Shown here piece after piece: positions 39,104 through 61,400 of a DNA stretch of 64,000 nt; positions within the stretch are counted from its first letter, which is position 1; every line of letters begins with the position of its first letter. Source of the DNA: Fibrobacter sp. Lineage in GTDB: Bacteria > Fibrobacterota > Fibrobacteria > Fibrobacterales > Fibrobacteraceae. The translations under genes were made by a program, and so were the position numbers. The notes beneath the pieces were generated by a model. It was given only the letters and a program-made list of their open reading frames with translations, searched no databases and was not told where the DNA came from. The stretch covers positions 1 to 64,000 of the forward strand of contig JAKSIH010000010.1 of assembly GCA_024398935.1 (NCBI GenBank), read 5' to 3'.

Positions 39104-39252
39104 GACAAGAATGTATATAAAAAATGCCAACGGAAACAAATTTTTACAAAATTTTCCCGAGCAAATGGGACGAAAATTTCGTTTTTATAGTGGAAGTCCT
39201 GCAAGGAGTCTTCCCGGGCGGTCAAGTGACCGGCTGCACTACAGCACCTTTC

Positions 39253-40272: not shown

Positions 40273-40359
40273 ATTCTTTTTTTGAGAAACCCACAACATT
40301 TATATACCAAAAAATAAAGTATATTTGTTTTTAAAATATAATTTTAGATAGGTTAATAA

Positions 40360-40680
40360 ATGTCCAAAGCAACAAAAGGAACCATACTTCCTCGCAAGGT
40401 GGCGCAAAACATGGCTATTGTCGGTGAACAAATCCGCCTAGCTCGCTTACGAAGGAACCTAAGCATCGCAGACATTGCGGCGAGAGCTACTTGCTCTGAA
40501 CTTTCCGTGATGCGCGTAGAAAAAGGATCCCCGAGTGTCGCTATGGGCATTTACCTAAGGGTGCTTTTTGCGCTTCAACTGGATGATGACATTTTGCACA
40601 TTGCACAAAAAGATGAAATCGGAAGAAACCTACAGGACCTCGACCTGAAACAGCGCAAGCGTAGTTCAAAGAAGGGGTAA
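40360..40680 (+). CDS. XRE-type DNA-binding protein, HipB-like antitoxin
   Basis: The 106-residue protein has one Cro/C1-type helix-turn-helix (IRLARLRRNLSIADIAARATCSEL-type, residues about 25-62), placed as in HipB antitoxins. A basic C-terminal tail (KQRKRSSKKG) follows. It sits directly upstream of hipA remnants, as in hipBA operons, where the antitoxin represses the operon and neutralises the HipA kinase. The leader is very AT-rich, with TATAAT at 40337-40342 and an ATATAC-N11-GTATAT inverted repeat at 40302-40324, a possible autoregulatory site. Because the kinase is broken, it may now be an orphan regulator. Confidence 0.8.
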   Translation: MSKATKGTILPRKVAQNMAIVGEQIRLARLRRNLSIADIAARATCSELSVMRVEKGSPSVAMGIYLRVLFALQLDDDILHIAQKDEIGRNLQDLDLKQRKRSSKKG

Positions 40681-40685
40681 AAAGC

Positions 40686-41485
40686 CCGGTCAAAGTACTT
40701 AATGACTTTGATTATATGATTTCGCTAGATGACTACTCAAGAATGGGTGCACTTCGTTTCAAAAAAGAAAATTCCATTGTGGGGACATCATCCGAGTGTC
40801 CTGTACCACCTTTAGCAAACTTAAGGGAATTTGTAGACATCGCCCACGAATACGAAAAAAGCGAAATGACCGGCAAATCTCCAAAAGACGAATGGATTAG
40901 AAATGCGGAATAGACGTTGCGGAAACCAGGCTTGTTAAATTGAGCGGGATAAAACATCACGTATTGCTTTCAAAACGATTTGATCGTCATGGAGGCAAGA
41001 GAGTTCACTTCGCTTCGGCAATGACTCTGGCAAACTTGCATGACGGTTGCGATGCGCTTACCAACAACGGCTACCTTGATATTGTTGATTGCATTGTCGG
41101 AAACGCTGGCTTTGCCGATGTCAATAAGACTTTAGGCGAACTATACAGAAGAGTCGCATTCAACATCGCTATCGGTAATCACGACGACCATTTTAAGAAT
41201 CACGGATTCCTGCTAGGCATAGACGGCTGGCGGCTTTCCCCTGCATACGACTTAAACCCGACAAACTACAGAACGCAAAGTTTGCTGATTTCTTCTTACA
41301 CGAACGAATCGTCGCTAGAAGTATTGGAAGATTCTTGTGATGAATACATGCTCAGCCACACGGAAGCATCCACAATCATTGAAAATATTCAAGACTGCAT
41401 GAGTACATGGCGGGATGTTGCCGTAAAATGTGGAATTTCTAAAACAGAACAGAAACGTTTCGAGCAAAGATTTGAAAAGTCGTGA
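40686..41485 (+). pseudogene. Decayed hipA kinase toxin gene
   Basis: Two frames carry pieces of one HipA-like protein. Frame 1 (to the TAG at 40911) has VLNDFDYMISLDDYSRMGALRF-type sequence, which belongs about a quarter of the way into HipA. Frame 2 reads on from 40904 with CGIDVAETRLVKLSG and LLSKRFDRHGGKRVHFASAM, then AFNIAIGNHDDHFKNHGF and LSPAYDLNPT, the catalytic and metal-binding segments. The N-terminus (roughly the first 100 residues) and the central ATP-binding SSxGGxRPK segment are missing, and the frames shift near 40900. Toxin activity should be lost. Confidence 0.85.
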
Positions 41486-44600: not shown

Positions 44601-47600
44601 ATCGTCACTTTCATAGGCAAGCTCTATATCTGCATAGGGTCCATCTAAGTCGATAGTCACGTTAACAACTTTACCAACCAGCTGATTGAACGGAATATTC
44701 GTTTTTACCTTTTCCCAGGTGCAATGGCCAAGGTTATCGACGCCACCCTCGTTGCGGTAATATCCGTTCTCTTCACGAGCATACTTTTCACCATATTTAG
44801 CAGTGGAATCTGGGTTGCCAGCCGTTTCCCAACCAGGAGACCAGGAGGTTAATCCAAGTTCATAGTAAGGATGCTTTGAATAGCAGAAACCTTCTGTACA
44901 GTGGCACAACTGAAGATGGGCCGTATTGGTTGTCGTAGATGACACAATACCGGAATACACAAGATTATCTCCCTCAGGATCGTATTTCACATTAGTATAC
45001 TTATTTTGCGTATCACCAGCAGGGTCGATAGCCAAAGTAAAGAAGGATGAAAGGTCTGATTTTGCCCTGAAAATGAGGGAGGTCTTTGAACCCCATGATT
45101 CAATACCTTCGGAACCAGTGATTTTAATGGTTTCACGCAAGGTTCCGTTATAACCAGCCTGGTGCTTGCGAAGTATCATTTGCTGTACTTTCTTTTCGTT
45201 GTTATAGGCATGGGTGGCATACCCCATGTTACGATTGATAAAGGGTTTTTCGTTCCATTGCGTAGTTTGAGAAGGACGCATGGGACCTCCCTTGGGCTGC
45301 TGAACGCCTTGAGTCATAATCACCTTAAGCCAAGGAGAAAGAGTATCGTCTTGTGCATAATAGCCGCCTTTAACACGAGGTGCATCAAGAATTGGCGGAT
45401 GACTATCCACGTTTTCCTCGCAGCAACGAGGGGTAGAACAGGTGTCAGGCAAACAGACGGCAGCCTTTACACCTCGATAGTGACGATCGCTAGCATTATA
45501 TTTTCCAAGTTCTCTTTCACCGGGATCAAAGTAACTCCAAACGCCGGTGTTCAAATCTTCCTTATCCGCCACGGAATACTTATCCATGTATGTGTAGGAA
45601 TCCAGTTCACTTAAGGTTTCTCCTTCCACATCACAGTAAATACCATAGTAATGGGTATAGTTTGTCCCAGAAGTTGATGGAGCCCCATTCTTCATTATAT
45701 TATTTATCGCATCATTGAAATTTTGACCTGGAGTAAAACGATAAATTCGATTCGACACACACTGGTCAATGCAGTACTTGGCCTGATAATCATTTTCCGC
45801 AGAGGCAGGTTCGCGACCAAAATCCCTCATAGCAACCCTAACAGGATTATGTTGGGCTCTATCAAGTGTTACAAATTTGCCTTCAGCCACAGAATATACA
45901 GAACCTTCTACCGCAAACTGGTTGTAATCATTAGCGATATTGGCAAAATACCCGCCCTTTTGACCGTCAGTTCCTGTTGAATTATCTCTATAAGCAGTTG
46001 TACTAGTTTTCACACCACCTAGATACGCTCCAGACACTTCTCTATCACAGTAAGAATAGAGGTTCTTGAAGTCTTCCACAAAGCAATAACCCGCATTGGT
46101 GAAGTAGGCGATAATCGTCATGTTGCCTTCGGGGCGAACCGTAATTCTACGGTTGTTAATGTCAGTCAGGCTGTTATCGCTACTGGACCAATGATTGAAA
46201 TTTCTACCAGTTGCACGGGCATAGTACGTTTCGTCATAATAAACGGTAAACGAGCACTTACCGGAATTACCTGTTTTACAAGTACCCATGTAGTTATTGT
46301 TGCTATCATAAATGGAAACATCAAAGTCTTCGTCATCGCCCTTGCCATCATCAGAAGGATCGCCCTTCAAAACATGGGCACTACCCTTTAAACCAGAAAT
46401 CTTTACCGTAAGGGTATAATGGCGTTTCTTGAGGGAGGCATAAGCCATCGTTACAGATCCATTGACAATCACCGGGAAATTTTCCTGCCGGACAATACAC
46501 TTTTCCTCATCATAGCCGCTAGCCTTCATATAGGCACGAGGATTGGCCTTTCCCTCGATATCGCATTCCCAAGGACCAGTAGACTTATCAAAGCCACTGC
46601 CTTCGTTACACCCCTCATTTCCGTCAATGTAGGCGCCCCAACTCACACCATTTTCGCCAAAAGCGCTTTCATCACAGTCGGGTATCTGAGACAAGGTATC
46701 CGATACAGCAGGGAGTATATTAGGATCAGCAGAGAGTTCACCATGCCTTACGATACCCTTGGCTGCGCCAAACATCACCAGTTCATTACTGGGATTACCG
46801 GTGGTGAATTCATCTGAATAATCTTCATCTTCAAGCTTAAACTGAATTGAACCGGTCGCGGAACCACAATCATTTACAATAATGCTAAACGGCGTAATTT
46901 GTGAGACGCCATCGGCAACAGTAAGCTCATACACAACGGCATCCTCGGTAACCGCCTTTTGTGTCATAGTATAACCTGTTCCAGACAGAGTTGTCGTAAG
47001 ATTAATTGCAGACTCGTTACTCTGGTTATAAACCGTCAGTTTCAGTTTACCACCCTTCTGTTTTGGAATGTTGATGCTAACTTGTTTTGTATTGTCAGCC
47101 TGGCAACGTTCACTATCCAACATATAATACAGCATATCGAAGGATGCCAACGACGTAGATCCTTCATCTACAACATATACCCAGAATTTGGATTTTTTTG
47201 AGTCTTCTTCGTAAACACAAGTATGAAGGCCCTTTACGCTAAACGGGGTTGTTTCGGAAATGGAGGTTCCTGAGCTTTCGCTAGTGCCAACATGACATGT
47301 TGCAGAACCACTTTGTGGAACAAGGCCTCCGAGGTACATTACAGTATATACTTTTTTTCCATTTTTACTCAGGGCACTGTCAATATTTGTGTAAATCACA
47401 CGAGGTATAACGACTAAAGACTGATCTAACATTTCTGAATTGTCTAAATCAATTTCTTCGTTGTTAGCATATTGTGTCGCTAGGTCAATCTTTAGTTGAG
47501 GAGCAAACGGAATCCATGGTTCTGTACTGATTTCCAGTTCCGTTCCAGAGTCTGACGAAGAGGAAGATGGAGTTGAATCATCGCGAATTTCTTGACATGC

Positions 47601-49469
47601 CGAGCCACCGTTAAAGTCACAAATGGCACCAGCATCACTAAGTGCATCAACAATATTCTGATCAAATTCCAAATTCAATGTACTAGGGAGATTACCCAGC
47701 TTAGCACAACTTGCCGCCTCGGCGTAAACAGACCCCTTAAGAGTGCCGTTATTCTTGATATTATCGATATCACCCTTCGTATAAATAAAGTAGCCATATT
47801 TACCGGCATCGCCTTTTTCAAGTTCAATAGCGCCCGCGCCCTTCTTAAGGAAGATCAAGACCGACTTTCCCTCAGTTGTCTGCGGAAGCTTCATCACACT
47901 CGGACGTTCCTCAAAAATGAAAATGAAATTTCCATTAAGAGTCTTACTTCCTGTATTTTCAAAGGCTTCGGCAGAACTGGGTTTTATCACCATAAAGCCG
48001 CCGTTTCCATACAGTTCAGTGCTCCTCTTATCTGTAGCAGCGTAAATAGCATTCAATTTACCAATAGCGTCATTGTCCCGCCATTGCGTACTCCCCCAAT
48101 TTACAATATCAGAAACAGAAACTCCTGCAGAGACCGTCGTAACAGAATTAGCCTTGGATTCAAAATTACCAAGGGAAACCATATCTTGAATGGTAAATTT
48201 GGATCCATCACATGTTTTTGCAGCTTTGTTATTAAAGAACGTCATACAGTAATCTTTAGCATCCTGCTGACAAGTATGTTCAAGCGGCTTTCCTATATGC
48301 TTATCATTACTTTTGGATGTAAAGCAGAGAGGGTAAGCGCCTGCACCCATACCACCATACACCTTACAAATATTCAATCCATATCCACCCTTATAGTCAT
48401 AAAAATTTTCACCTAGATGCAAGGACGAAGACGGTCGAGAAGTCAATTCAGCAGAAACACCCCACCCAATTGACCCGTCTATATTCGCACCATTAGGCAT
48501 CCATACATCACCGATAGCTTTAAATGGTTTGGGTCTATTGAAATGGAATTTACCTGTATTAGTGAGACAAAGTTCTTCTTGGAAAGTTACGGCGTGTTCA
48601 CCAAGAGCATCATTGACCCTGCCATTAAACGTCGCATTTCCGCCAAATGAAATATCTGAGTTTCCTGTCAGATTTACATTTCCTTCAAAAAAGGAGGTCC
48701 CTCCAATTTCACCCCTTATGGAAGATTCCGTCGTCGCATCACTTTTACCAGCAACATAAACATCCTTAAGTTCAACTCCATCGTTCTGCATAACGAGGTG
48801 TCCACCAACGCAAGTTGTTCCTCCTACAGATATAGCCCCACCACTAACAACATTCAAGTTACCTGTAACGACAACATCTTCCTCAACAGAGGCAGCTTCA
48901 CCAGAGGCGTTGTAATCGCCATTAATCAGCATGGAGGTCTTTTTATGACCACCACCATTGATACTCAGAGTTCCTCCAAAATATGAATACTTGTACTTGG
49001 ATTTTCTAACCGAGGACGGTGGGTTGATTTGATACAAGCCCGTAATCTTAAGAATTGCAACTTGACTATACTTTGAGCCGTGTCTGCCATTACCCGTAGA
49101 AACCAACTTTAATTTTACGGAGCCACCTTCGGGTACAGCCTCAGTAGCCACCACGGAGTAGCTCTGATTAAGGTCACTAGACATGGCTGTCAACTTGTTG
49201 CCCAAATCAACAACAACACCATTCGAACGACCATTCATAAGTTGAGTTACAAGGCCGGCAGTCTCTTCACCATTATAAGCAAGCCATGCACGAGCGGCAT
49301 TAAGACCTGCCTGAGAAGCTAAATATGCTTCAGATTGTTTCAATCGAGAAGCGCTAGCTCGCTCTGCAGAATTCAACCATTTGTAGACTGCAGTAGCAGC
49401 AATTGTTGCAATGGTCATGAACAACAAGACTGTTACAAGGGCTACACCTTTCTTGCTTTTTAAAAACAT
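41619..49469 (-). CDS. Giant PilX-like minor pilin/adhesin, left copy
   Basis: The start at 49469 follows the PilW-like stop by 1 nt and gives 2616 residues. The N-terminus KSKKGVALVTVLLFMTIATI is a prepilin-type leader and helix without Glu5, as in PilX/GspK. It is followed by an SQAGLNAARAW segment. Residues about 190-300 form a beta-solenoid-like stretch (short repeats such as VVTGNLNVV and VYVAGKSD). Later come divergent InlB-type repeat segments (YARATGRNFNHW), Cys-rich segments (DYCPDGGECEC) and Ig-like C-terminal repeats. Ordinary PilX has about 170 residues, so this should be a pilus-tip adhesin. A paralogue lies at 55479. Confidence 0.9.
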   Translation of the reverse strand: MFLKSKKGVALVTVLLFMTIATIAATAVYKWLNSAERASASRLKQSEAYLASQAGLNAARAWLAYNGEETAGLVTQLMNGRSNGVVVDLGNKLTAMSSDLNQSYSVVATEAVPEGGSVKLKLVSTGNGRHGSKYSQVAILKITGLYQINPPSSVRKSKYKYSYFGGTLSINGGGHKKTSMLINGDYNASGEAASVEEDVVVTGNLNVVSGGAISVGGTTCVGGHLVMQNDGVELKDVYVAGKSDATTESSIRGEIGGTSFFEGNVNLTGNSDISFGGNATFNGRVNDALGEHAVTFQEELCLTNTGKFHFNRPKPFKAIGDVWMPNGANIDGSIGWGVSAELTSRPSSSLHLGENFYDYKGGYGLNICKVYGGMGAGAYPLCFTSKSNDKHIGKPLEHTCQQDAKDYCMTFFNNKAAKTCDGSKFTIQDMVSLGNFESKANSVTTVSAGVSVSDIVNWGSTQWRDNDAIGKLNAIYAATDKRSTELYGNGGFMVIKPSSAEAFENTGSKTLNGNFIFIFEERPSVMKLPQTTEGKSVLIFLKKGAGAIELEKGDAGKYGYFIYTKGDIDNIKNNGTLKGSVYAEAASCAKLGNLPSTLNLEFDQNIVDALSDAGAICDFNGGSACQEIRDDSTPSSSSSDSGTELEISTEPWIPFAPQLKIDLATQYANNEEIDLDNSEMLDQSLVVIPRVIYTNIDSALSKNGKKVYTVMYLGGLVPQSGSATCHVGTSESSGTSISETTPFSVKGLHTCVYEEDSKKSKFWVYVVDEGSTSLASFDMLYYMLDSERCQADNTKQVSINIPKQKGGKLKLTVYNQSNESAINLTTTLSGTGYTMTQKAVTEDAVVYELTVADGVSQITPFSIIVNDCGSATGSIQFKLEDEDYSDEFTTGNPSNELVMFGAAKGIVRHGELSADPNILPAVSDTLSQIPDCDESAFGENGVSWGAYIDGNEGCNEGSGFDKSTGPWECDIEGKANPRAYMKASGYDEEKCIVRQENFPVIVNGSVTMAYASLKKRHYTLTVKISGLKGSAHVLKGDPSDDGKGDDEDFDVSIYDSNNNYMGTCKTGNSGKCSFTVYYDETYYARATGRNFNHWSSSDNSLTDINNRRITVRPEGNMTIIAYFTNAGYCFVEDFKNLYSYCDREVSGAYLGGVKTSTTAYRDNSTGTDGQKGGYFANIANDYNQFAVEGSVYSVAEGKFVTLDRAQHNPVRVAMRDFGREPASAENDYQAKYCIDQCVSNRIYRFTPGQNFNDAINNIMKNGAPSTSGTNYTHYYGIYCDVEGETLSELDSYTYMDKYSVADKEDLNTGVWSYFDPGERELGKYNASDRHYRGVKAAVCLPDTCSTPRCCEENVDSHPPILDAPRVKGGYYAQDDTLSPWLKVIMTQGVQQPKGGPMRPSQTTQWNEKPFINRNMGYATHAYNNEKKVQQMILRKHQAGYNGTLRETIKITGSEGIESWGSKTSLIFRAKSDLSSFFTLAIDPAGDTQNKYTNVKYDPEGDNLVYSGIVSSTTTNTAHLQLCHCTEGFCYSKHPYYELGLTSWSPGWETAGNPDSTAKYGEKYAREENGYYRNEGGVDNLGHCTWEKVKTNIPFNQLVGKVVNVTIDLDGPYADIELAYESDDGTNMVYSDYHVNLEDPEVFHYSRADNPITAMRNDTASHRYVGFNVHSAVVKFYNVSWRSGGNCEEGTTTEPSIYCGYDNPYVAINTKDRPKAYVTDYCPDGGECECTPTFYLNGSKWDGTFRSVATYGKGALQVKMECKDLLGYEDANGIRHYKENWVGRAPCAAFSTYDRGSDENMCTDSYHIFVDNQYEQRRGYPYIYLYGSEISGFDSTYSYQGVNNGGVSEKGLYTNVYLSGGFHYNQSQGANTTCGEKKIDGTCKYWIGDNSQCSARKADGECSGWTNNPSGTLIHPYKSGELGTVKNPDLIKVSIDNTGKWTWGETTKYIQLRDSVTGSHRLNLNGATFSFDILQPNNATAIEYWFVDSDGGESRHIPLDSVNYIAGMEVDGRTPGPETNGKYGISGYCLKDNKYYRVDNCDEHLTLNYNANGSVNSVNRKPNDKNDAGFYIDYFEKSGAASYHKIPYGGKPDASMEYKAYDCCQRGLIWWRDAKGGDTPVNRHISVKVDMSLDSVMFKPDRVSRIYYRLENKPSYKEENPTYVYKKITDENEAIISTKTTYQIGDWRGSTEKVDDNNLGTFFHIGNIQSSCPSAFNLSNCQLNGVNRNVPTDPLVVYQGDRVTFSANLDNTSDCYFDGAGHSSSNTSDKVACTLSGKNSYSITFNSEMQNEPLTFTATSSKNGTTKSCVQYVTVKKKATIKDGFSCDETPTTYVKNGTLPKIEASLSEYDANLKYAIYAGGCGNSGMLIEGTEATLMGDISQSFEPTSGSGNYYLCYGHAKPYTQEICSKQVNVVENVTVSGCGLSPSTVNPLGSFDVSAMTNAPNGSACSVTINGSPYNCAVNNGTASLSGIAAPNTASDYPVTIDVLGTEENCGTLTVSAGITDASSCNTGNSTNIGTVENRDNAPSQHIYMTKNTGYYVNIPYKYNGVKLRLERLSGSKPVTFSIKKCDGSLGSITISSEQGTWNDFGVNIWGGTCNVFIVPDGDVEMNFNAW

Positions 49470-49470
49470 A

Positions 49471-50739
49471 TTACATCTCCGTTCCATTATCCGGTGTCGG
49501 AATCATCTTTTCAATACGAGAAACTTCCTTGCCATATTTAAGAGCTAAGTTCAGTTTAAACGCCTTAACCTTTTTCTTTTCTTCTTTGTCATCTAGGTTA
49601 AACGCAGCAAAAGAATATTCAGCTTCATCCCTAAGAGTAACTGCAAAATTTGAAACAGTCATAGTCCCCTTCCAAACTAAGGGAGAAAACAGAGCTACCG
49701 TAAATGCAAGACAAACATCATCAGTTTGCTGAGGAACACTAAATTCCACATAGCGATTGTAGTCATCATTAGATTCTGACGGATACACCATAAAGTCTGA
49801 AACATACGGGATGACATTTCCATCAGGTTTGCGCAAACCTATACTTATGTGATCAGTACCCGGCAAAAAATCACGCATAAAATTGGGGTTTGCTTTTGTT
49901 GCGAAAGCAATCATTTGAAATGCGATCGCATAGGTCTTATAGGGTTGGAAATTAAACCTAGCGCATTTCTTCCAATCAAGATCACCTCCTGTTGGATTAC
50001 CTTCAAGAAGATACAACTGCGTCGCTAATTTTTCGGAACCCGTATTGGATGGAAACTGGGATAGTTCAACATTGCTACCGCTGGCAAGGGTTTCAACACG
50101 CAAAAAACCAGATCCTGTTCTCGATGCAAGAGCAAAACTTCGTCCCGCAGCAAAATGACCATTAGCCGGGAAATAGGTTGAAGCATCCATTCTAAAATCG
50201 GCATCCTGTATACGGCGGCCCGGAGTTAACTGAAATTGAGAAACTTTATCGCTAATCAAAACTTCAAAGGTTTCTCCTTCATCTTCATGAGGACAATCAG
50301 CTGGAAAACTAGACAAAGAAGATGATTTTTTTTCTATGGACCGGCAAGAACGATAAAGATTAGTACCCTCAAGTCTCCATGTTATTAACTGGGAATACTC
50401 CGCAACGCCCTTATTATCGTAGACCAATTTTTTAAAACTTATTTGATCTTTTGATGCGTTTAGAGAAAATGAAGAGTGATCGGAATTGTCATCATCATAA
50501 TAGATATCAGTCTCTAGCTTATCCGAGCCATCACTAAGAACAAATTTTGCCCCCATTTGGCTAAGATCTTCCGCTATCATCTGCGAAAGATTATCAGCTT
50601 CGGCTGTTCCCTGAAGCATATTTTCCGTACGAACACGGAACCTTGTGCTATCACTGAATGCTTGACCAGCAATGACTACTATAATGCCAACAAGACCCAT
50701 GTACACAATCAATTCAACGAGTGTAAAACCGCGCTTCAT
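49471..50739 (-). CDS. PilW-like minor pilin, left copy
   Basis: The 422-residue protein has leader MKRG, cleaved before FTLVELIVYMGLVGIIVVIAG, the class-III prepilin signal with Glu5. The rest is a long globular domain, much larger than usual minor pilins. RVRTENMLQGTAEADNLSQMIAEDLSQMGAKF matches the opposite cassette closely. It should sit near the pilus tip with the PilV- and PilX-like partners and start fibre assembly. Its start overlaps the PilV-like stop (ATGA), and its stop touches the giant gene's start. Confidence 0.9.
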   Translation of the reverse strand: MKRGFTLVELIVYMGLVGIIVVIAGQAFSDSTRFRVRTENMLQGTAEADNLSQMIAEDLSQMGAKFVLSDGSDKLETDIYYDDDNSDHSSFSLNASKDQISFKKLVYDNKGVAEYSQLITWRLEGTNLYRSCRSIEKKSSSLSSFPADCPHEDEGETFEVLISDKVSQFQLTPGRRIQDADFRMDASTYFPANGHFAAGRSFALASRTGSGFLRVETLASGSNVELSQFPSNTGSEKLATQLYLLEGNPTGGDLDWKKCARFNFQPYKTYAIAFQMIAFATKANPNFMRDFLPGTDHISIGLRKPDGNVIPYVSDFMVYPSESNDDYNRYVEFSVPQQTDDVCLAFTVALFSPLVWKGTMTVSNFAVTLRDEAEYSFAAFNLDDKEEKKKVKAFKLNLALKYGKEVSRIEKMIPTPDNGTEM

Positions 50740-51206
50740 CGAACAACCCCCGATACTGAGATGGAGTGAGTTTTCCCCTTAAGTTTCCAAGCCACGTTTA
50801 CAGTTGCATTTTTTGCATAGACATGCTTTATCGGGGAGTCCAAGTAGTTCGACGTATTTTCGCTTTGGAACATTGCATCGTCTGAAAGCGAAACGGTTAC
50901 ATCGTAATCCACATGAATCGTATAGTTTAGAAGACCTGGTTGACTTTCCCATTCCCTAGAGCGGACCAGCTTTATGATCCTAGCTGTATTGTTATTACTC
51001 AACGCAGCAATACCAACTGCATTGAGAGAGTCCAGAACATCCTGAGCAACCATATTGGCTCCATCACGAGCACGGATTCGCCACAGCGACTCATAATTAC
51101 TTTTCTGCAACTGGTTTAACGCTGTGAGCAAGAAACCAAGAACTGCAGCAGCCACCAGAATTTCGGCAATTCCAATGCCTCGTTTATTTCCAAAAAAGCA
51201 TCTCAT
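50736..51206 (-). CDS. PilV-like minor pilin, left copy
   Basis: The 156-residue protein has leader MRCFFGNKRG followed by IGIAEILVAAAVLGFLLTAL, a prepilin helix with Glu5. The next segment ESLWRIRARDGANMVAQDVLDSL is shared with the copy at 53704. The remainder is short and beta-rich, ending in KLKGKTHSISVSGVVR. It starts on the last base of the FimT-like stop and overlaps the PilW-like start by 4 nt, so all four left-hand genes are one translational unit. Confidence 0.9.
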   Translation of the reverse strand: MRCFFGNKRGIGIAEILVAAAVLGFLLTALNQLQKSNYESLWRIRARDGANMVAQDVLDSLNAVGIAALSNNNTARIIKLVRSREWESQPGLLNYTIHVDYDVTVSLSDDAMFQSENTSNYLDSPIKHVYAKNATVNVAWKLKGKTHSISVSGVVR

Positions 51207-51790
51207 TATAATTCACTCCAGTCAACATCCCCATCTTCTTCGAAACCAACAAAAGAGGCTATCTTACGTTCAACAGGCGACTTCGCAATCGCTGCATAAG
51301 AATCCGTTGTTCCATACTGGATAACGTAAACCCCTTCCCCAGAACATTCCGAAGCAGAAGTACACAGACCACGGAATGGGCTATACCCAATCCGATGGTA
51401 CAAGATCGCCTCTTTCGAAGATGTCGAAAGTACTGTAGTGGCATCATTGGGCAGATTATTCGACGAGACAAACCTTAGGGCAGCTTCCAAAGTGATTTTA
51501 TCCACAACACCACCCTGAATATCACAGCCAGTACCAGCAGCATTAGCATTGTAAGCGGATAGAGTCTGCTCGCCGTCAATTTTCAAGCAAAGTTTTTTAG
51601 CCTGACGAGTAGCCAATGCGCCCATGTTATCTACAAATGCGGCTACATTGATTGCTGCATCTTTTGTTCGAGCATTGATTGCGGCTCTGTTCATACTGGA
51701 ATATCCCAAAGTCGACAAAATCCCCATGATCGCAATAACGACCATGAGTTCAATCAGCGTAAAGCCTTTCTTTTGAACAACACCAAACAT
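51206..51790 (-). CDS. FimT/GspH-like pseudopilin, left copy
   Basis: The start is ATG 51790, after GGAGG with a 3-nt gap; a GTG at 51805 in frame would add five residues. The 194-residue protein has leader MFGVVQKKG and FTLIELMVVIAIMGILSTLG, a canonical prepilin start. A FimT/GspH-like domain follows, with Cys residues near KLCLKIDG and GTGCDIQG. The first 13 or so codons match the opposite copy almost base for base, and then the two diverge sharply. This marks the inner limit of the long inverted repeat that surrounds the recombinase. Confidence 0.88.
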   Translation of the reverse strand: MFGVVQKKGFTLIELMVVIAIMGILSTLGYSSMNRAAINARTKDAAINVAAFVDNMGALATRQAKKLCLKIDGEQTLSAYNANAAGTGCDIQGGVVDKITLEAALRFVSSNNLPNDATTVLSTSSKEAILYHRIGYSPFRGLCTSASECSGEGVYVIQYGTTDSYAAIAKSPVERKIASFVGFEEDGDVDWSEL

Positions 51791-51890
51791 AAGCCTCCAC
51801 ACCACCCGGGCAAACGCCCGAATGGTGAGATTTAATTCCTAGGAAGGGAAAGAAATTTTTTCAAAAAAATTCTTTCCTATTTTGCCATAA
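51759..51890. repeat. Left arm of 132-bp inverted repeat
   Basis: The reverse complement of 51759-51890 matches 53059-53190 at 122 of 132 positions; the outer 69 bp (51822-51890) are identical. It contains a near-perfect 31-bp palindrome (51847-51877, arms GGAAAGAA/TTCTTTCC), the 28-nt hairpin and the first codons of the FimT-like gene. It is a probable recombination arm of the 51891-53058 segment. Confidence 0.92.
51800..51827 (-). promoter_or_regulatory. Leader hairpin before left FimT-like gene
   Basis: On the minus strand a 12-bp stem (outer arms CACCA/TGGTG, inner CGGGC/GCCCG) closes a GTTT tetraloop. It ends just before the GGAGG ribosome-binding site. The other copy (53122) has the same fold with compensating base changes, which supports an RNA role such as control of translation or mRNA stability. 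Confidence 0.8.
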
Positions 51891-51972
51891 AATAAGCCGC
51901 GGTTCATCCGTGCCAGAAAGCATCCTGCCCGGCACCAAAATCACCTTGCAAATTTCAGGAAAAAAGGATTGC

Positions 51973-52824
51973 CTAAAGCATCCTGAGAGTATCTTCCATG
52001 TCGGAATCGGAGATATGAAGGTAGTGAGAACAAGTTACATTGATGTTGGAATGCCGCAGCAACTTGGAAATCACGGCAATGTTTGCCCCGGCCCGCAAGG
52101 CGTTGCTTGCAAAGCTGTGACGGAATCTATGACAGTGGGCCACTCCGTCAAATTTCATATCAAGACCCTTGCACAGTTTTTTAAGAGCCTTGTTTTCGAG
52201 GGATTCGTGAAATTTTCTTGAGAAAATATATCCTGTAGAAGGGAATGCCGAGAAACCGGTAAAACGGCTTAGCTCATCCCTCAATTTTGGGCAAAGGGGA
52301 ATGCGCCCCTTGATATTCCCCTTCCCGTTAAAGGTCAGCCACCCGTCGCGAATGTAGTCCCACTTAAAACGGGCCGCCTCCGAGAAACGGAGCCCGTTGA
52401 ATGCCATCATGGCATAGAAAAGCCTATGTTCGGCATCCATGGCGTGGTCCAGGATAAGATTTACCTGGTCAGGCGTCCAGAAGAACCGCTCGATAGGCCG
52501 CTTCTTGGGCAGCAGTTTCATTTTCTTGAATGGATTCGCCATGTCCAGTTCGTAAATGTCGATGGCCCACTCAAAAAATGTATGCCAGACGATTCTCTTT
52601 GCCCGGACAGAGTTCGGGTTAAGGCTCGTCGGTAAACTTTCGAGCATGTCCAGGGCGTCTTTTCGCGTGAATTCGGCCAAGTTCCTGAAAAGGTAGGGGG
52701 TAAAATGCCTAACAGACGATTTGTATCCCGAATAGGTGCAGCTACTTCGGCTCCTTTTTACTGCGGTTAGCCAGGAATCAATAGCCTCCTCAACGAGGAT
52801 GATTGCTTGCTTTTTAGTGTTCAT
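51973..52824 (-). CDS. Tyrosine recombinase (probable DNA invertase)
   Basis: The start ATG 52824 (MNTKKQ) follows AAGGATAAC and gives 283 residues; the frame is open 23 codons further upstream, but that part overlaps a hairpin and lacks a ribosome-binding site. The N-terminal SAM-like core-binding domain is followed by the catalytic domain with GLRFSEA (Arg), KGNIKGR (Lys), HRFR (232-235), His258 in LLRHSN and Tyr268 in SHYLHIS. The full R-K-HxxR-H-Y set is therefore present. It is the only gene between the inverted repeats and reads toward the left cassette. It is most likely the enzyme that inverts this segment, and could also serve other sites. Confidence 0.93.
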   Translation of the reverse strand: MNTKKQAIILVEEAIDSWLTAVKRSRSSCTYSGYKSSVRHFTPYLFRNLAEFTRKDALDMLESLPTSLNPNSVRAKRIVWHTFFEWAIDIYELDMANPFKKMKLLPKKRPIERFFWTPDQVNLILDHAMDAEHRLFYAMMAFNGLRFSEAARFKWDYIRDGWLTFNGKGNIKGRIPLCPKLRDELSRFTGFSAFPSTGYIFSRKFHESLENKALKKLCKGLDMKFDGVAHCHRFRHSFASNALRAGANIAVISKLLRHSNINVTCSHYLHISDSDMEDTLRML

Positions 52825-52845
52825 GTTATCCTTTTTTGTTGATTC

Positions 52846-52863
52846 TTCTGGCAACAGCCAGAA
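52846..52863 (-). promoter_or_regulatory. Hairpin in the recombinase leader
   Basis: TTCTGGC (52846-52852) pairs with GCCAGAA (52857-52863) around AACA. It lies about 20 nt before the recombinase start in its own transcript, where it could reduce expression. TTCTGCCAGAAAAG near 52953 is a related sequence. Confidence 0.4.
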
Positions 52864-52907
52864 AAACGGAACAAATAGTTCCAAACATGACACTCCGCAA
52901 GGTTCTT

Positions 52908-52924
52908 TTTACAAAATTTGTAAA
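52908..52924. promoter_or_regulatory. Perfect 17-bp palindrome upstream of recombinase
   Basis: TTTACAAAATTTGTAAA is an 8-1-8 inverted repeat about 85 nt upstream of the recombinase start. It overlaps an AT-rich stretch that could contain the recombinase promoter. Size and symmetry fit an operator for a dimeric regulator, perhaps one that limits switching. Confidence 0.5.
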
Positions 52925-52987
52925 TTATTGTTGTAACTCTTTTATGACCTCCTTCTGCCAGAAAAGAGCTGGGCGAAAATCCTTTGC

Positions 52988-53060
52988 TTACCGAAAAGCA
53001 CCTTATTGGGCTATAATAAGTAAACCACATTTTACACTTGCCCCCATATTTATATATATT
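52988..53060 (+). promoter_or_regulatory. Promoter candidates pointing at right pilin cassette
   Basis: A perfect -10 TATAAT lies at 53012-53017 with TTACCG 18 nt upstream. A second possibility is TTTACA (53031-53036), 18 nt, TATATT (53055-53060). Both lie inside the segment flanked by the repeats and read out toward 53159. No equivalent was seen at the left end of the segment (51891-51972). Confidence 0.5.
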
Positions 53061-53190
53061 ATGGCAAAATAGGAAAGAATTTTTTTGAAAAAATTTCTTT
53101 CCCTTCCTAGGAATTAAATCTCACCATCCAGACTCGCGTCTGGGTGGTGTGGAGGCTTATGTTTGGTGTTGTTCAAAAGAAGGGCTTTAC
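53059..53190. repeat. Right arm of 132-bp inverted repeat
   Basis: It mirrors 51759-51890. The first 69 bp (53059-53127) are identical to the left arm in opposite orientation, including the 31-bp palindrome (53072-53102). Nine differences fall in the hairpin and one near 53182. Identity stops at codon 11 or so of the FimT-like gene. Confidence 0.92.
53122..53149 (+). promoter_or_regulatory. Leader hairpin before right FimT-like gene
   Basis: A 12-bp stem (CACCA/TGGTG outside, CCAGAC/GTCTGG inside, one T-G wobble) closes a TCGC tetraloop directly upstream of GGAGG. Compared with the left copy, two base pairs change from G-C to A-T on both sides, one changes wobble to C-G, and the four loop bases differ. 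Confidence 0.8.
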
Positions 53191-53716
53191 TTTGATAGAA
53201 GTCCTGATCACTGTGGTCCTCATAGGGATTCTTTCCACTATGGGGGTTGCTAGTCTGATGGGTGCTGCGGAGAACGCCAAGATTGAGGGGGCCGGCAAGG
53301 ATACGGCTGCGTTTATGGAACGTATCGCCAAGGATTCCAAGCGGATGTCCAAGCCTCTTTGTTTGAAGAGGGCAAACGACCAGAGAATTGATGTGTACAA
53401 GTCGGACGATTGCACGGATCCTCTTGCGGACTCCCTGTACGACCATCTGGATATTGACGCTCCCATGAGATTTGTTGCGGAATGTCCCCAGGTCGGTGGA
53501 ATCGAAGGGTGCAATTCTTCGGGAAGTTGCGAGGCCAACCTGCTTGATGGTACGGCGGGTGTGTTCAAGCCAAAGATCGGCTTGTCCTCCCTGCCGGTTT
53601 TCGGTTATGTATGCATTCAGTTTGCCCTCAAGGATCATTACGCAATTGCCTTGAAGACTAGTTCAGAAAATTTCATGAAGCCTCTTACATACGAGGGTGG
53701 CGAATGGTCTTGGTAG
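53159..53716 (+). CDS. FimT/GspH-like pseudopilin, right copy
   Basis: The start is ATG 53159 after GGAGG (an in-frame GTG at 53144 is the alternative), giving 185 residues. Leader MFGVVQKKG is identical to the left copy, then FTLIEVLITVVLIGILSTMG begins to differ. The globular part shares RMSKPLCLK and the overall plan with the left copy but little exact sequence. It is the first gene of the right cassette and lies directly behind the promoter candidates of the switch segment. Its stop lies inside the next gene, so translation is coupled. Confidence 0.88.
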   Translation: MFGVVQKKGFTLIEVLITVVLIGILSTMGVASLMGAAENAKIEGAGKDTAAFMERIAKDSKRMSKPLCLKRANDQRIDVYKSDDCTDPLADSLYDHLDIDAPMRFVAECPQVGGIEGCNSSGSCEANLLDGTAGVFKPKIGLSSLPVFGYVCIQFALKDHYAIALKTSSENFMKPLTYEGGEWSW

Positions 53717-54195
53717 AATCTGTCCTAAAAAAGTTGATGCCTCGGAATCCGAAGGCGGGGATTGGCATTGCAGAAATCCTGGTGGCTTCTGTAGTGCTTG
53801 GTTTTTTGCTGGTTGCCTTGAGCAAGCTTCAACTGAGCAATCGTGAATCCGTGATTCGGACCCGGTCAAGAGATGCCGCCGTGGAAATAGCCCAGGAGGT
53901 TCTGGATTCCCTATCTGCAGTGGGGGTGGCCGCCTTGCATGGCGATGGCAACACCAACACGATCAATCTTGTCAAACAAAGGGAATGGAAACAAACGCCG
54001 GGAGATGTTGAAACCACGTCAAGAATGAACTATACGGTCAGGGTCGAGGTTTCTCCCGACGAGGACTTTCAGAATAGGGAAGTTTCCAAGTTCGATACGA
54101 CAAGGCATGTCTATGCAAGACGGCTGAACGTGAATGTGTCCTGGATTTTCAAGGGGACTCCCACATCCATCAACGTAACCGGGATGGTTCGATAG
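53704..54195 (+). CDS. PilV-like minor pilin, right copy
   Basis: The 163-residue protein starts at ATG 53704, which has GAGG 7 nt upstream and overlaps the FimT-like gene by 13 nt. ATG 53737 would give a shorter, more usual leader (MPRNPKAG), but has no ribosome-binding site. The helix IGIAEILVASVVLGFLLVAL has Glu5. SRDAAVEIAQEVLDSLSAVGVAAL and the C-terminal TSINVTGMVR match the left copy in plan. It should form part of a pilus-tip initiation complex with the PilW- and PilX-like proteins. Confidence 0.88.
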   Translation: MVLVESVLKKLMPRNPKAGIGIAEILVASVVLGFLLVALSKLQLSNRESVIRTRSRDAAVEIAQEVLDSLSAVGVAALHGDGNTNTINLVKQREWKQTPGDVETTSRMNYTVRVEVSPDEDFQNREVSKFDTTRHVYARRLNVNVSWIFKGTPTSINVTGMVR

Positions 54196-54208: not shown

Positions 54209-55468
54209 ATGAAAGCAAGAAATTCCAAAGCGGGTTTTACCTTAATTGAACTGATCGTGTACAGCGGCCTGATCGGGATTATCGTGGTCATTGCCGGTCG
54301 TGCTTTTACAAACAGTACGAAAATGAGAATCCGTACCGAAAGCATGATACAGAGTACGTCGACTGGGAATGCGTTATCGGCACTCTTGTCGGAAGATTTG
54401 TCGCAGATGGGGGCGAAGACCGATCTTGGGGATGGCGAGTATCACTTCTTTAGCGAGGTGTACAACGATCCTACTAGCGACTCTGCTTCATACGTCCTAA
54501 AAAGTGGAACTCGGGATAGCATCTCCTTCAAGAAGGTGGTGAACGGTTCCGACGGAAAGGCTCTGTTCCTGCAGCAGGTGAGCTGGTTCTTGACAGGCTC
54601 CACCCTCAAGAGGTCCTGCAAAACGCTTGCGAAGTTTACCGATCAGGATGCCCCGGACGAGTGTCTTATGTTGGACAACAGTGAAGACGAGGCTGTACCG
54701 GTAGTCATGTCGGAAAATGTTTCCGAGTTCAGCCTGAGACCGGGTAAGCGCTTGCAGGATGCTTCGTCGTGCCCATCGACTGATTTCGGGGAGGGGTGCT
54801 TCAAGCTGGGTTCCGTGTATACCCTGGCATCCCGTAGTTCCAGCGGCATTACCCCGGTCGTATTGGAACCTATTACGGGAACGACCTCCATTGCCATCAG
54901 AGGGTTCTACAGCAACTTCGATGCGAACACCAACTATTCCTCCCAGGTGTATCTGCTGAATGGGTCGGTCAGTAACCCTGTCTGGGGGCAGTGCTCCGAA
55001 TTTACGTTTAAGCCAAATGTCACTTACGGCGTTTCCTTCTCGCTCATGGTGGAAAGCGACCTTTCCAATGTGAACTACATGCGCAACTTCATGGCTGAAT
55101 ACGACCACGTTAGCGTAGGCTTTAGGACCCGCGAGGGTGACCCGATCGAAGGAATCCAGGACCACATGGTCTATCCGGCTCAGGGTGAGATTGATACGGA
55201 CCGGTATTTTGAATTCAGTTTCCCGCGGGAGGTTACGGGTGCGTGCCTCGCCTTTACCTTTGCCTTCTATTCCAAGTATGCGGCAGACGGCTCGCTGGCC
55301 ATTTCCGGCATCAGCGTTTTCCCGAGGGACGAGGCAGGGTACGACTTTGATTCGCCAGGGACTAATACGCGTAATCACAAGGCCTTCCAGTACAGGCTAG
55401 TGACAAGGGTAAACGGGGAATCCACAGTCATCGAAAAATTTGTTCCTACGCCCAATAACGGTATTTAG
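54209..55468 (+). CDS. PilW-like minor pilin, right copy
   Basis: The 419-residue protein has leader MKARNSKAG before FTLIELIVYSGLIGIIVVIAG, with Glu5. The first 70 residues follow the left copy closely (RIRTESMIQST, SEDLSQMGAKTD). The remaining globular domain keeps shared landmarks such as VSEFSLRPGKRLQDA, YMRNFMAEYDHVSVGFR and VYPAQGE, with many substitutions. A GGTAGGG ribosome-binding site precedes the ATG. The giant adhesin gene follows after 10 nt. Confidence 0.9.
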   Translation: MKARNSKAGFTLIELIVYSGLIGIIVVIAGRAFTNSTKMRIRTESMIQSTSTGNALSALLSEDLSQMGAKTDLGDGEYHFFSEVYNDPTSDSASYVLKSGTRDSISFKKVVNGSDGKALFLQQVSWFLTGSTLKRSCKTLAKFTDQDAPDECLMLDNSEDEAVPVVMSENVSEFSLRPGKRLQDASSCPSTDFGEGCFKLGSVYTLASRSSSGITPVVLEPITGTTSIAIRGFYSNFDANTNYSSQVYLLNGSVSNPVWGQCSEFTFKPNVTYGVSFSLMVESDLSNVNYMRNFMAEYDHVSVGFRTREGDPIEGIQDHMVYPAQGEIDTDRYFEFSFPREVTGACLAFTFAFYSKYAADGSLAISGISVFPRDEAGYDFDSPGTNTRNHKAFQYRLVTRVNGESTVIEKFVPTPNNGI

Positions 55469-55478
55469 GAGTTTTTGT

Positions 55479-58400
55479 ATGAAGAGTTTGTCCAGAAAAT
55501 ACTTTGGCAGGAAGGGTGTCGCCCTCATTACCGTGCTGATCTTTATGACCATTGCAACGATTGCTGCAACGGCTGTTTATAAACTGCTCGCCTCCGAAAA
55601 TCTTTCAAGCGCAGCTCGCTTAAGGCAAAACGAGGCTTACCAGGCTAGCCAGGCGGGTCTTAACCTGGCTCGAGCATGGTTGTCTTATAATGGTAGCGAG
55701 ACAGCCTCCCTGATTACCCAGTTCGCCCGCGATGGTCAACACAGGCCTATTTCTCTAAACGAACGGATGAGACAGAGTGGTCTACAGATTCAACAGGATT
55801 TTTCCGTGCTATTGGCGAGCGTGGATACGGTCAGTTCCAATGGGGTGAAGGTAAAGCTGATTTCTACGGGCAAGGGCAGGGTAGGGTCCAGCTACAGTCA
55901 GGTGGCAATTCTGAATGTGGAAGGCCTGTACCGCGTTGATATTCCTTCTGCTTCCGGGGATGTGGATTACAATGCTGCTTATTTCGGCGGGTCCTTGTCT
56001 TATGCAGGTGCTCATGCTGCTACTGCCATGATGGTTAATGGTAACTGGGATGGAAACCCTTTGAAGGTGACAAAGGACTTTTATATCACAGGTAATGTGG
56101 ACTTGAGCGGTAACGAAGTTGATATCGGTGGTACAGGTTGTATTGGCGGTGATATGCTTGCCGGCAACGGACTTAAGGTTGGGTCTATTTACGTAGATGG
56201 GGACGCGTTAGGGAAATTAAGGGATGTTTCAGGGGATGCTTATTTTAATGGAAATGTGGATGCCACTAATGCGGATTTTACCGTTGTTGGAAATTTCTAT
56301 GCGGGTGGAAGTCTTAAAACGGACCCGAGTGCTCACGATGCCATTTTCCAGAATAACTTCTGTATGGGCGATTATGGACGCATTGTCTTTGGTAGTGGCA
56401 TTGGACATGAATTCCGTGTGCAAAATAATGTCTGGTTGCCCAATACTGGAGCGATGAGTGGCACCATGTCGGAAGCGAATGCCCTGGAAAAGAAGTTTGG
56501 TATGAGAAATGAATCCCAGGTGTATATAAGCGAAATGTACATGGACGTCATCAAAGATGGCTATGCCTATTTACATCAGGAAGGCGATTTTATTTCTGGC
56601 CTATGGGGTGCTATCACAGGTGAATACAACTGGCGCTATTTTGTATCGAAATCGGAAAATCGAGTGTCTTCCGTAGCAGGCGAGCCTCCCTTTGACTGTG
56701 CTGATTCCCTGCCGACATTTTGTCATAAGAAATGGCACCCCGCCGAAGGTTGTGACGGTACAAAGTATAAGATCGACGATTTGCTGACCACAGCTTACGA
56801 TTCTTTTGAACAGAAGGCGAATCAAGTGGATTGCGCCAAGGATATTAAGGAGTTTACGGGTGGTAGCTCTACCGTTGAATCCTTGAATGCTTGCTATGAA
56901 AAAGCTGCCAAAGAAGGTGATGCGAATCTTTACAATGGCTTCCTGGTTGTCAAGTTTACAGCAAATTCAAATGCGTATCCTACGGGTACTTTGAATGGAA
57001 AGTTTATCATCATCTATGAAAATGACGGCAGCAGCGGTGGTTATTTAAGATTGCCTCCTTCGACGGGAACGACCATGGTGTATTTGAAGGAAGGCGCAAG
57101 CGGAAATGTTGATCAGTCTGTTGTTGATCCTAACGCAACTTACAATTACTTTATCTATACAAAGGCTGATATTGGACAAATGTTAACAGGAAGTTCCCCT
57201 TGGAAGGGCTCTGTTTATGCAGAAGCAGAAAATTGCGCAAAGCTGGGGAAAGTGCAGGGTGGAATCAGCCTTGAATATGACCCCAAGGTGGTCAACGCAC
57301 TCGTTAACGCCAAGGTAATTTGCAAGGCCGGCACCAACTGTGGGGATAGTGGCGATGGTGAAGTGGATGAGTCTGGTAATGTAGTAAGTACCTCTGCAAA
57401 GGATAAAAACTGGATTGCCCTTGCCCCGACACTTAAAATCAGCCTCATGTCTCAGTATGCCAATAGCGAAAACGTCTCTGTAGAAAATCACGAGATGGAA
57501 AAGGGCGTCCTTGTAATGCCTCGCGTGATTTATCTGAATACGGGAGACCGATTGGTCAATGGTTCCGAAAGAGCCTATAATGTGATTTATCTTGGGGGCC
57601 TAGAACCTTCTGGAAGTGGTTCTGCATCGTGCTATTTTGGCGAAAAACTTGGCTCCGGAGTTATGGTCAGTGAAACTTCTACATTTGATAGCGAAGGACT
57701 TTATACCTGCCAGTATTCGGAGGGTGATTACACTTCGGATTTCTGGGTTTGGGTCATGGACGCCAGCTCTAGTGCTAAGGTTTCTTTGGATACGCTGAAC
57801 TACAATTTGTCCAAAGTTTGTGAAAGTGTTGGCATAAAGACAAAGAAAGTTGGAATCAAGTTGCTTACGGAGCACTCCATTTCGGGAGGCTACCTCAATA
57901 TTCTCGTATATGAAAAGTCCAATGGTGCAACAGTCACTCCTCTTACCTCTTCAAGCGGCTTGTTTACATTAACGGACCTTGGTCCTAGTAGCGGAGGTGA
58001 ACTTTATAAACTGGAATTGAAGGAAGGAATTTCCTCCATGACCGATCCCTTGTTCGATGTGAGCATTTTTGGGGGGTGCGCATCGGCTTCTGGTTATGTG
58101 CAGTTCCAATTGCTAGATCCTGTTTCTACAGATAATCTGGGACTGGCAAGCCCCGGCAACGAATTGGTGTTGTTAGGTGATGGCGCGGGCCCTGTGGCTC
58201 ATCACCCCATAAACGAAGATGAAACGGTCAGCGATAGTATCAAGAGCATTCCTGAATGTACTGCATACAATAAAGACGATGTGGTTTGGACTCCTAGCGT
58301 GGAAGGGTGCTACGTTGCAAGTGGCATTGAACCAGATGCGTTCTATGGACCTTGGCTTTGCCCCATGAGCTCGGTGGTGAGCCTGTCCGTGTCTAACAAC

Positions 58401-61400
58401 GTGGATGAAAGAATATGCAAACCCTACTTTGGATCTTCTGCCGTGGTGGAAAGTCCCAATGACACGGCATTTGTGTATGCTTCCCTTAAGAAGACTCCTT
58501 ACACGCTAAGCATTGAAATTGAAGGTTTGATGGGTACGGCAAATGTGTACGGTTCTCAAGGTGAAGTTTCCTTGGGTGGCAAGACCAAGGAAGAGCTAGA
58601 AAATGATGCCGAAGTCGAATTGCTTAATGAAAATGATGAGATTCTTGGAACCTGTAGGACCGGTGGCGTCCTGTACAAAGATGGCAAGAATATTGGCCCT
58701 TGCGATATTACTGTTTACTATGGTCAGCACTATTATGTACGAGCCAAGGGTAAATACTTTGATCACTGGAGTTATTACTGCGATAGCAAGAGCCCCACAT
58801 TTGCTTGTGGTACTGCAACGGGTGCGTCTACCAAATCCCGTCTTATTGCGGTGACCATTTCTGAAGATGTTACCGTGAAGGCGAACTACACGAAGACAGG
58901 TTATTGCTTTAACGAGGACTTTAAGCACTTACACCCGTATTGCGACTATGAAGTGACCCCGAAAGCCATTGGTGGACTATCCTTTGCTCGTTTGCCCTTG
59001 AATTCAAGCGGATATACGGATTTCTATAGGACGGATGTGCGAAACAGTGCTGAAAAAAGAACTATTTCAAAATCTCAGTACGAGGACTACGGACACGGAG
59101 ATGGAGAATACTGTATTGACCAGTGCGTAACCAACTGGAAGTACCGCTATAGTGAGTTGGCCTACCTTGCGGGAAAGGAACTTGAAGGTATAGGAACAAA
59201 GTATGATTACTATTTTGACTTCTATTGTTCCGTGGAAGGTAAGACTGCCGAGGGAACGGTAAGGGAAAAGGAATCTGAAGCGGCTGATGTCTGGAGTTAT
59301 TATGATCCGGGTATCTCCTGCGAAGACCAGGTGGACCGCGCCTTTGATGACTGGAAAATGCCTTGGACATATAATGTGTCGTTCAACCTTACGAAGGAAG
59401 GGGCTAAAAAAAATTGTCACGACACCTATCGCTGTGTAAGTGGCGCCAATAACAATAGTAGTGCAAATACATTGGATTGTAGAGGAAAACATCCGCCTAG
59501 CCTAGATAAGCCTCGCGTCTATGGAGGCTATTATCCGCAGAATGATCCGTATTCTCCGTGGTTAAAGGTTCTTTCTGTCAATATTTCTCAGATGACGAAA
59601 TATGGTGCAAGGCGTAGTCCTGATAAACACAATATCAAGTTGGATATTGATGATGCTGGCGAAACTGCGAAATCCGTCAATCAGAGTTATTGGAATATTA
59701 AGCCTTATATTGATCGAGAAGACGGTTTTGCCTCTCAGCATGGTACCAAGACTTCCTTTATTATCCTCCGTAAAGAAAAGGCGGGCTATAACGGAACTTA
59801 TACCAAGACATTTACATGGAATGGTACCGGCGAATCCAATGATGGCGGTAGTATTAGTGCAATTATCTTTAGATCCAATGCAGATGCCACCTCCTTCTTC
59901 TTGTTGGGCATAAATCCGTCAGCCTCTACGACGGATGCAACCCAGCGGCACTTTATTTTGTGCCATGGTACGGAACGTCAGATGTTCAATGAAACTGCTG
60001 TGATTTCTGGTTCTCAAATTCAAAATGACGCCCGTGAAATGCAGTACCCGCTGAATACAGGGCATTGCATTGCGGAAGAGGTTTTTGCAAACCTTCCTTG
60101 GGATTACATTAAGCAAAGAACGCTTCAGCTGAAGGTGGAACTGGATGGTCCCAATGCAAAGATTACCTTCTCCTATACTAACCAGACAACAGCTAATGTC
60201 GGAACTGGTTCTGAACTTTTTGATGGAACGAACTCCACGATTTATATCAGCAAGACCTTTAATCTAGAAGATCCTGCGTTGTTTGGATATCCTATTGATG
60301 ACGATCATTGGAGTGAACGTCTCCCGAAAGTTGATGCTGCGGGAAATTCAACTCATATTTACCAGAACCCCATTGAACACATGAAGAATAACAATGAAGA
60401 CTATGGGTATGTAGGTTTTGTGGTTCACAACCAAAATGAAAAGATTTATAACTTGAACTGGCGTTCTGGTGGATCCTGCGGTGGTGACTATCGAGAAGAA
60501 CCTGGTACCTATTGCGGCTTCGAATCTGCAGAAGTGACTGCAAATACCCATACCGTACCTATTCGCTACGTATACGACTACTGCCCAGACCAAGGTGAAT
60601 GTCGCTGTACCTATAAGTATTCCCTAAATGGTGGCAGCTGGATTGACGAAAAGAATTTCATTCTTCCTCCCGAGGGAAGAAAGTATCCTTATGGTTCCTT
60701 GAGAGTTCTTGCAGAATGTTATGATGAAAATAATCCTACCGGAAAGACCTATAAGGATAGCACAGCTTGTAACGGTTTTACAACTGTAGTGGAAGGGGGC
60801 GAAAATGTCTGCTACGACAACTATACCATTTTCAATTACTATAACACGGCGACAGTTCTGAACCAGTTTACGTTGTATAATAGTGAAATCGCGGGTATTA
60901 ACAACTATTATCGTACTAGGATTAAACAAAATGCAGGTGAGATTGGAGATGCTATCCGTGAAAAACTCTGTGTTGACACGGAAGACATGGTTAGAGAGGG
61001 CGGCATTAATGAAGGTGCAGCAAGTGTTGTTGGCGAATCTCATTACAGTGCAAGTAATTTCTGTTCTGCAACAAACTCTACATCGGGGACGAAGCACGGA
61101 TTAAACGCCAACATTACTGTTGATGGTGTTGCTGTTAGGGTTCATCCGAAAGAGAATAACATTAATAAGCAAGAAAGCAGCGATAAGCCGAACCAAAACC
61201 AGTTTGATACTGGCAATTTGATGATGGTTGGCCATGGACCAGATGCCGACCCCTACGATGGTGTAACGGCAAACTTCCTGCAGCTGATTGATACCATTGA
61301 TAACACCAACACCAAGCGATATCTGAATCTTAAGGGCTCTGATATAACCTTTAGACTTTATCAGAATAACTTGGTGGATGATATCCGCATTTATGTTGAA

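Follow-up and report, generated by a model that had tools for sequence, protein, structure and literature searches.

The genus Fibrobacter digests plant fibre, and one locus in a Fibrobacter genome (2.92 Mb in 76 contigs, 82.6% complete) raises the question of what a tyrosine recombinase gene is doing by itself between two inverted repeats, with a set of minor pilin genes pointing outward on either side. The locus lies in the window, the 64,000-nucleotide stretch analysed here, which comprises positions 1-64000 of a 79,272-bp contig (C2). The best-supported answer is promoter inversion between two alternative cassettes of pilin genes and a giant gene. With a probability of about 0.84, the resident recombinase flips the segment 51870-53079 and moves the sole predicted promoter between two cassettes for predicted pilus-tip adhesins. 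Genus-wide comparisons were made with 80 Fibrobacter genomes (G numbers), and L numbers denote DNA stretches around individual loci.

A recombinase gene between inverted repeats

The features of the central segment and its borders are as follows, where p1 to p3 are the three genes that precede the giant gene in each cassette.

51759..51890, no strand: left inverted-repeat arm, covering the leader of left p1 and its first codons
53059..53190, no strand: right inverted-repeat arm
51870..51889, no strand: predicted left crossover core, where arm identity has its inner edge; in the direction of the left cassette the sequence is TATGGCAAAATAGGAAAGAA
53060..53079, no strand: predicted right crossover core, at the inner edge of arm identity, placed by analogy with a sister system
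51796..51830, minus: left hairpin abutting the ribosome-binding site, fold -23.9 kcal/mol
53119..53153, plus: right hairpin abutting the ribosome-binding site, fold -23.0 kcal/mol
51973..52824, minus: tyrosine recombinase of 283 amino acids (PF00589); the open frame extends to 52893 (306 amino acids)
53020..53060, plus: predicted cassette promoter, GTAAA-N6-TTTAC ... TATATATT, inside the putative invertible segment and facing the right cassette

The two arms that flank the segment are identical at 122 of 132 bases when compared as inverted repeats, and belong to an extended ungapped pair of 204 nucleotides at 83% identity (51691-51894 and 53055-53258). The next longest inverted pair within 40-64 kb is 80 nucleotides at 70%, and the best of ten dinucleotide-block shuffles of 50-56 kb reached 67/132. 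Nine of the ten arm mismatches are confined to one hairpin stem (51808-51821), where the left and right versions differ in sequence and nevertheless fold into the same hairpin. Outside the stem, the non-coding leader is identical at 67/68 positions and the ribosome-binding site with the first codons at 45/46, and then, within the first pilin gene, identity drops to 47/71. Thus, arm identity peaks in non-coding DNA and ends a few codons into each cassette. A search of Rfam gave no match at gathering scores.

The recombinase frame (51973-52893, minus strand) matches PF00589 with an E value of 5.9e-21 and 75.4 bits, against a curated cut-off of 27.1, and five of eight close relatives begin at the equivalent of ATG 52824. 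In a 12-row alignment (A1), R169 is invariant and K191, H255, R258, H281, and Y291 are at least 90% conserved (numbered by the 306-residue frame), so that the R-K-H-R-H-Y set, which we take to be the catalytic residues of tyrosine recombinases, is kept. A scan of genome contigs with the single recombinase protein gave 29 pattern matches, none of them a relative, and all of the 199 phage records with a recombinase match were below 60% identity. A terminator at the recombinase stop codon is not claimed, as folding gave just -7.4 kcal/mol.

Two outward-pointing pilin cassettes

On either side of the segment lie the two cassettes, listed here from left to right.

41619..49487, minus: left giant, 2622 amino acids, with a PilX/GspK-like N-terminus followed by a predicted tapirin-like beta-solenoid
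49471..50739, minus: left p3, PilW/GspJ-like minor pilin (N_methyl 3.9e-5)
50736..51206, minus: left p2, PilV/GspI-like minor pilin (weak PilV match, E 0.011)
51206..51805, minus: left p1, GspH/FimU-like minor pilin (N_methyl 2.5e-9, GspH model 1.1e-9); likely start ATG 51788-51790
53144..53716, plus: right p1, GspH/FimU-like minor pilin (N_methyl 2.8e-7); 34% identical to left p1; likely start ATG 53159
53704..54195, plus: right p2, PilV/GspI-like, without an N_methyl match of its own; 51% identical to left p2
54209..55468, plus: right p3, PilW/GspJ-like (N_methyl 3.2e-5); 40% identical to left p3
55440..64000, plus: right giant, a 2964-codon open frame from the first TTG, ending at contig position 64334

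Both cassettes have the same gene order (GspH-like, PilV/GspI-like, PilW-like, and a giant PilX/GspK-like gene) and are homologous gene by gene, with the giants 31% identical across 2434 columns; the stop codon of the right giant lies 334 bases beyond the end of the window. Several of the pilin matches score under the curated thresholds for their specific models. Together in one operon, the GspH-, I-, J-, and K-like prepilins make up the minor (pseudo)pilin set of a type IV pilus or type II secretion system, and the genome also has the assembly genes for the pilus ATPase (seven matches to PF00437, six of them over the cut-off) and the platform (PF00482, two of two). Relatives of the PilW-like p3 gene were found in 76 of the 80 genomes of the genus and in all 40 of the best assemblies. 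The most fitting description of the cassettes is that of predicted pilus-tip complexes.

A preliminary description of the locus had already reported a full-motif tyrosine recombinase alone between 132-bp inverted repeats, arm identity that runs through non-coding DNA and stops a few codons into the genes, and homologous four-gene pilin cassettes pointing outward, and all of these observations are confirmed by the figures above.

Directly 3′ of the right giant lies a fifth, major-pilin-like gene (G000:C2:64347-64850; L036:4347-4850). A relative of this gene (63%, L084:746-1282) follows the right-type giant of G074 as well, so that it may be a pilin dedicated to the right set.

A PD-(D/E)XK transposase-family gene, a helix-turn-helix gene, and an open reading frame with a HipA C-terminal domain (only profile positions 63-213 are covered) adjoin the end of the left giant at 39124-41485. 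An OLD-like AAA ATPase with a TOPRIM domain, possibly a defence gene, lies at 37310-39139.

A conserved promoter-like motif within the segment

Positions 53020-53060, at the inner edge of the segment on its right side, read GTAAACCACATTTTAC...TATATATT. A search for the pattern GTAAA-N6-TTTAC-N10-20-TATATATT gave a single copy in the 2.92-Mb assembly and 23 copies in 21 of the genomes of the genus, and the reversed control gave no copy in either search. Of these 23 copies, 15 stand before a cassette, with a PilW-like gene on their own strand 0.55-1.31 kb downstream. In the present orientation of the segment, the left cassette has no promoter motif. As the motif is conserved, unique in the genome, and located inside the segment, the segment is taken to carry the sole cassette promoter, which would serve whichever cassette it faces.

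The palindrome also accompanies relatives with a single cassette, namely G024 (left-type, with an 84% identical giant), G009 (left-type p1 and p2), and G074 (right-type, 60-76%). The G009 cassette adjoins the same isocitrate dehydrogenase gene, as judged by its N-terminus, and the G024 site is absent from the 23 copies because its -10 element is slightly different. G077 has the promoter and a cassette without p1, with a decayed piece of the window's recombinase (67% over 30 residues and 84% over 19) upstream. Near-identical sites also occur away from pilin cassettes (G072:C34:30839, G073:C4:40025, and G074:C69:2001), which suggests that a promoter of this kind serves a further gene.

A sister recombinase at the same position

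A second recombinase family, with members 88-93% identical to that of G016 and about 31% identical to the window's enzyme, is present in six of the 80 genomes and lies beside pilin/giant cassettes in all six. Divergent cassettes flank the sister segment on one contig in G016, G065, G085, and G098; in G083 the locus is spread over two contigs with a 55-bp overlap between their ends, and in G060 over contigs C8 and C1. The window clade and the sister clade each received 100/100 support in a recombinase tree that left open whether the two are sister groups (the row INT_L002 is a doubtful frame). Among 17 stretches around weaker recombinase homologues (L037-L053, some of them cut by contig ends), a pilin/giant cassette was found in L049 alone, and the others were left out of the system because they have none. 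Divergent pairs of p3 genes in G004, G020, G072, and G082 were likewise set aside, having neither a recombinase nor a long repeat.

The two ends of the sister segment are unlike each other, one (alpha) following the stop codon of the recombinase gene and the other (beta) preceding its start, and both terminate in AAGCTATTTTA, an 11-bp core at which the segment ends and the leader types switch. In G060 (UBA4223), contig C8 joins beta to one flank, X, and alpha to another, Y, and contig C1 begins with the last 13 bases of alpha, followed by the core and X; X plus core is identical across 228 bases in the two contigs. Since any assembler word of more than 12 bases had to span the junction of alpha with X, both arrangements were probably present in the sample, perhaps in different strains. 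Moreover, alpha is joined to leader type B in G016 and to type A in G098, which agrees with inversion. The beta end also contains a palindrome, ACGCA-N5-TGCGT (L049 near 10789, about 120 bases from the core, and L091, L092, L093, L122, and L125), which is perhaps the promoter operator of the sister segment.

In the window, arm identity begins near TATGGCAAAATAGG (53060-53073; left, 51876-51889), a position equivalent to the sister core. By this analogy, crossover would occur at the inner edge of the arms, at 51870-51889 and 53060-53079, so that leaders and hairpins would stay with their own cassettes. The left leader is of the right-cassette type, while residues 61-180 of left p1 are 66-71% identical to G009; the left cassette thus seems to have acquired the leader of the right one together with its recombination site.

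A model of the switch

In the proposed mechanism, the segment 51870-53079, with its recombinase gene and promoter-like motif, would flip between the inverted repeats, and the predicted promoter, now directed at the right cassette, would then face the left one. We infer that transcription from the motif would serve the faced cassette and that the other would be silent; as assembled, the right set is predicted to be ON and the left set OFF. Leaders and ribosome-binding-site hairpins would not be exchanged between the cassettes. The giant is predicted to sit at the tip of the pilus as its cap, with a stalk formed by a tapirin-like beta-solenoid and a C-terminal part that varies. The outcome would be a reversible, heritable choice between two pilus-tip adhesins that probably suit different plant-fibre surfaces. 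The preliminary description had proposed such a redirection of a promoter between two giants, and the single motif in the segment, the sister-system junctions, and a tapirin structural match support it, the inversion itself being deduced. Its guess that the hairpins remain with their cassettes agrees with the crossover position suggested by the sister system. One sister-system assembly (UBA4223) has both junction types, and the window locus has one orientation alone.

Several observations weigh against this model. The assembly contains no third arm copy that could be an inverted junction and presents one orientation only, and the recombinase relatives at 71-96% identity were seen without their DNA context. 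Eight of the 23 motif copies are not beside a p3 gene, the motif is missing from all six sister-system genomes, and no promoter was identified in the sister system, where the beta end keeps the palindrome and A/T tracts. A simple sigma-70 promoter scan of the region found three sites (one of them 53031-53060) against 2.8 expected from shuffles, so that the promoter claim rests on motif conservation; a simple terminator scan found two against 2.6. The alpha-X junction of UBA4223 rests on 13 bases at the start of a metagenome-assembly contig, and the two states may be those of different strains. Between species, opposite orientations are backed by leader types and not by pilin coding sequences, which are too diverged to pair cassettes, so that this comparison alone is no proof. 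Tapirins as a class have a C-terminal solenoid fold and bind cellulose, and the Foldseek match of the left giant's stalk model to them had a non-significant E value of 1.5, with a mean predicted local distance difference test score (pLDDT) of 64.4 for the model; no tapirin was among the matches of the giant in a sequence search of the PDB. The Foldseek matches of the left giant's C-terminus (pLDDT 38.5) to immunoglobulin-like folds were not used.

Other explanations

It is conceivable, if unlikely, that the recombinase chiefly exchanges or captures cassettes, with inversion as a side effect. The sister loci of G098 and G065 would fit, since one cassette pair (L091, L092), the one exception to the divergence in coding sequence, is 95-99% identical in DNA over p1-p3, and the other cassettes are just 65-76% alike, a pattern that suggests cassette replacement at the switch. 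Left and right orthologues are also present singly, in G024 and G074. However, the sites are inverted rather than direct, the stretches read contained only two of them per locus, and no free cassette came to light, although no search was aimed at one. Moreover, the promoter within the segment is explained by inversion and not by capture.

Still less probable is that the arms are merely a duplicated leader, copied from right to left by duplication or gene conversion, and that the recombinase is an inert passenger without any inversion. Bases 51759-51798 of the left leader are 92.5% identical to the leader that the orthologue of the right cassette has in G074, while the coding sequence of left p1 past its start resembles G009. 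The single orientation in the assembly would also be expected. After a copying event alone, however, the left cassette would still have no promoter motif; inversion of the segment would supply one. In addition, the recombinase is intact with its catalytic residues conserved, the sister family at the same position displays both junctions, and such repeats are missing from the four recombinase-free divergent pairs inspected.

Finally, it is highly improbable that general homologous recombination between the 132-bp arms inverts the segment and that the recombinase acts on some other site: arms of this length allow some RecA-dependent exchange and the sister loci of G065 and G085 are also long-armed (263 nucleotides at 83% and 352 nucleotides at 87%), but the sister end types switch at the 11-bp core, and no inverted repeat of at least 20 bp surrounds the segment of G016, yet the recombinase is kept in all six sister genomes.

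Relation to known switches

The proposed promoter inversion by the resident recombinase has parallels elsewhere. The H-segment of Salmonella, inverted by Hin, holds a recombinase gene and a promoter inside one invertible segment of about 1 kb, but Hin is of the serine type and its segment borders a single operon instead of two; the Fibrobacter enzyme is a tyrosine recombinase (PF00589). In Moraxella, inversion by Piv selects between type IV pilins, but Piv belongs to another recombinase class and swaps coding sequence of the major pilin. Inversion switches, including those in which tyrosine recombinases act on pilus adhesins, are known (PMC9045228, PMC3047005). In the Rci/PilV shufflon of IncI plasmids, a tyrosine recombinase varies the minor-pilin adhesin of a type IV pilus by DNA inversion (PMC9045228). 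Shufflons use several sfx-flanked segments to swap the 3′ ends of one gene, whereas in Fibrobacter the repeats span leader and first codons, and the predicted effect of a single segment, placed upstream of two whole operons, is to redirect a promoter. The UU172/UU171 and mba elements of Ureaplasma alternate the expression of two neighbouring genes, surface proteins among them, by inversion at inverted repeats, but the available part of the account mentions neither a recombinase gene within the segment nor pilins (PMC3047005).

The giants also differ from possible counterparts. Unlike the tapirins of Caldicellulosiruptor, to which it has no sequence similarity, the Fibrobacter stalk is fused to a pilin N-terminus in a protein of more than 2,600 amino acids. 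ComZ of Thermus is a proposed DNA receptor with a PDB chain of 507 residues, and the available part of its description does not report phase variation. Distinctive here, as predicted, are a single promoter that chooses between two complete tip operons, the tapirin-like stalk, the occurrence in a fibre degrader, and the use of two recombinase clades. A literature search, whose coverage mostly excluded subscription journals, returned no report of invertible promoters, invertible segments with a recombinase, or invertons in Fibrobacter.

Implications for fibre adhesion

The mechanism by which Fibrobacter attaches to cellulose is unsettled; pilins have been implicated, and no tip adhesin is named in the available parts of the relevant papers (PMC3079729, PMC6851124). 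The locus described here offers candidate tip adhesins. The balance tips slightly towards the broader view that two different phage-type tyrosine recombinases were independently recruited to the same spot between paired tip cassettes, each flipping one promoter, and that fibre adhesion is a form of heritable bet-hedging. If so, swapping the entire tip complex would let sister cells hold on to different plant polymers, and phase-variable adhesion, as the locus predicts, would be a property of a fibre-degrading bacterium and not of pathogens alone.
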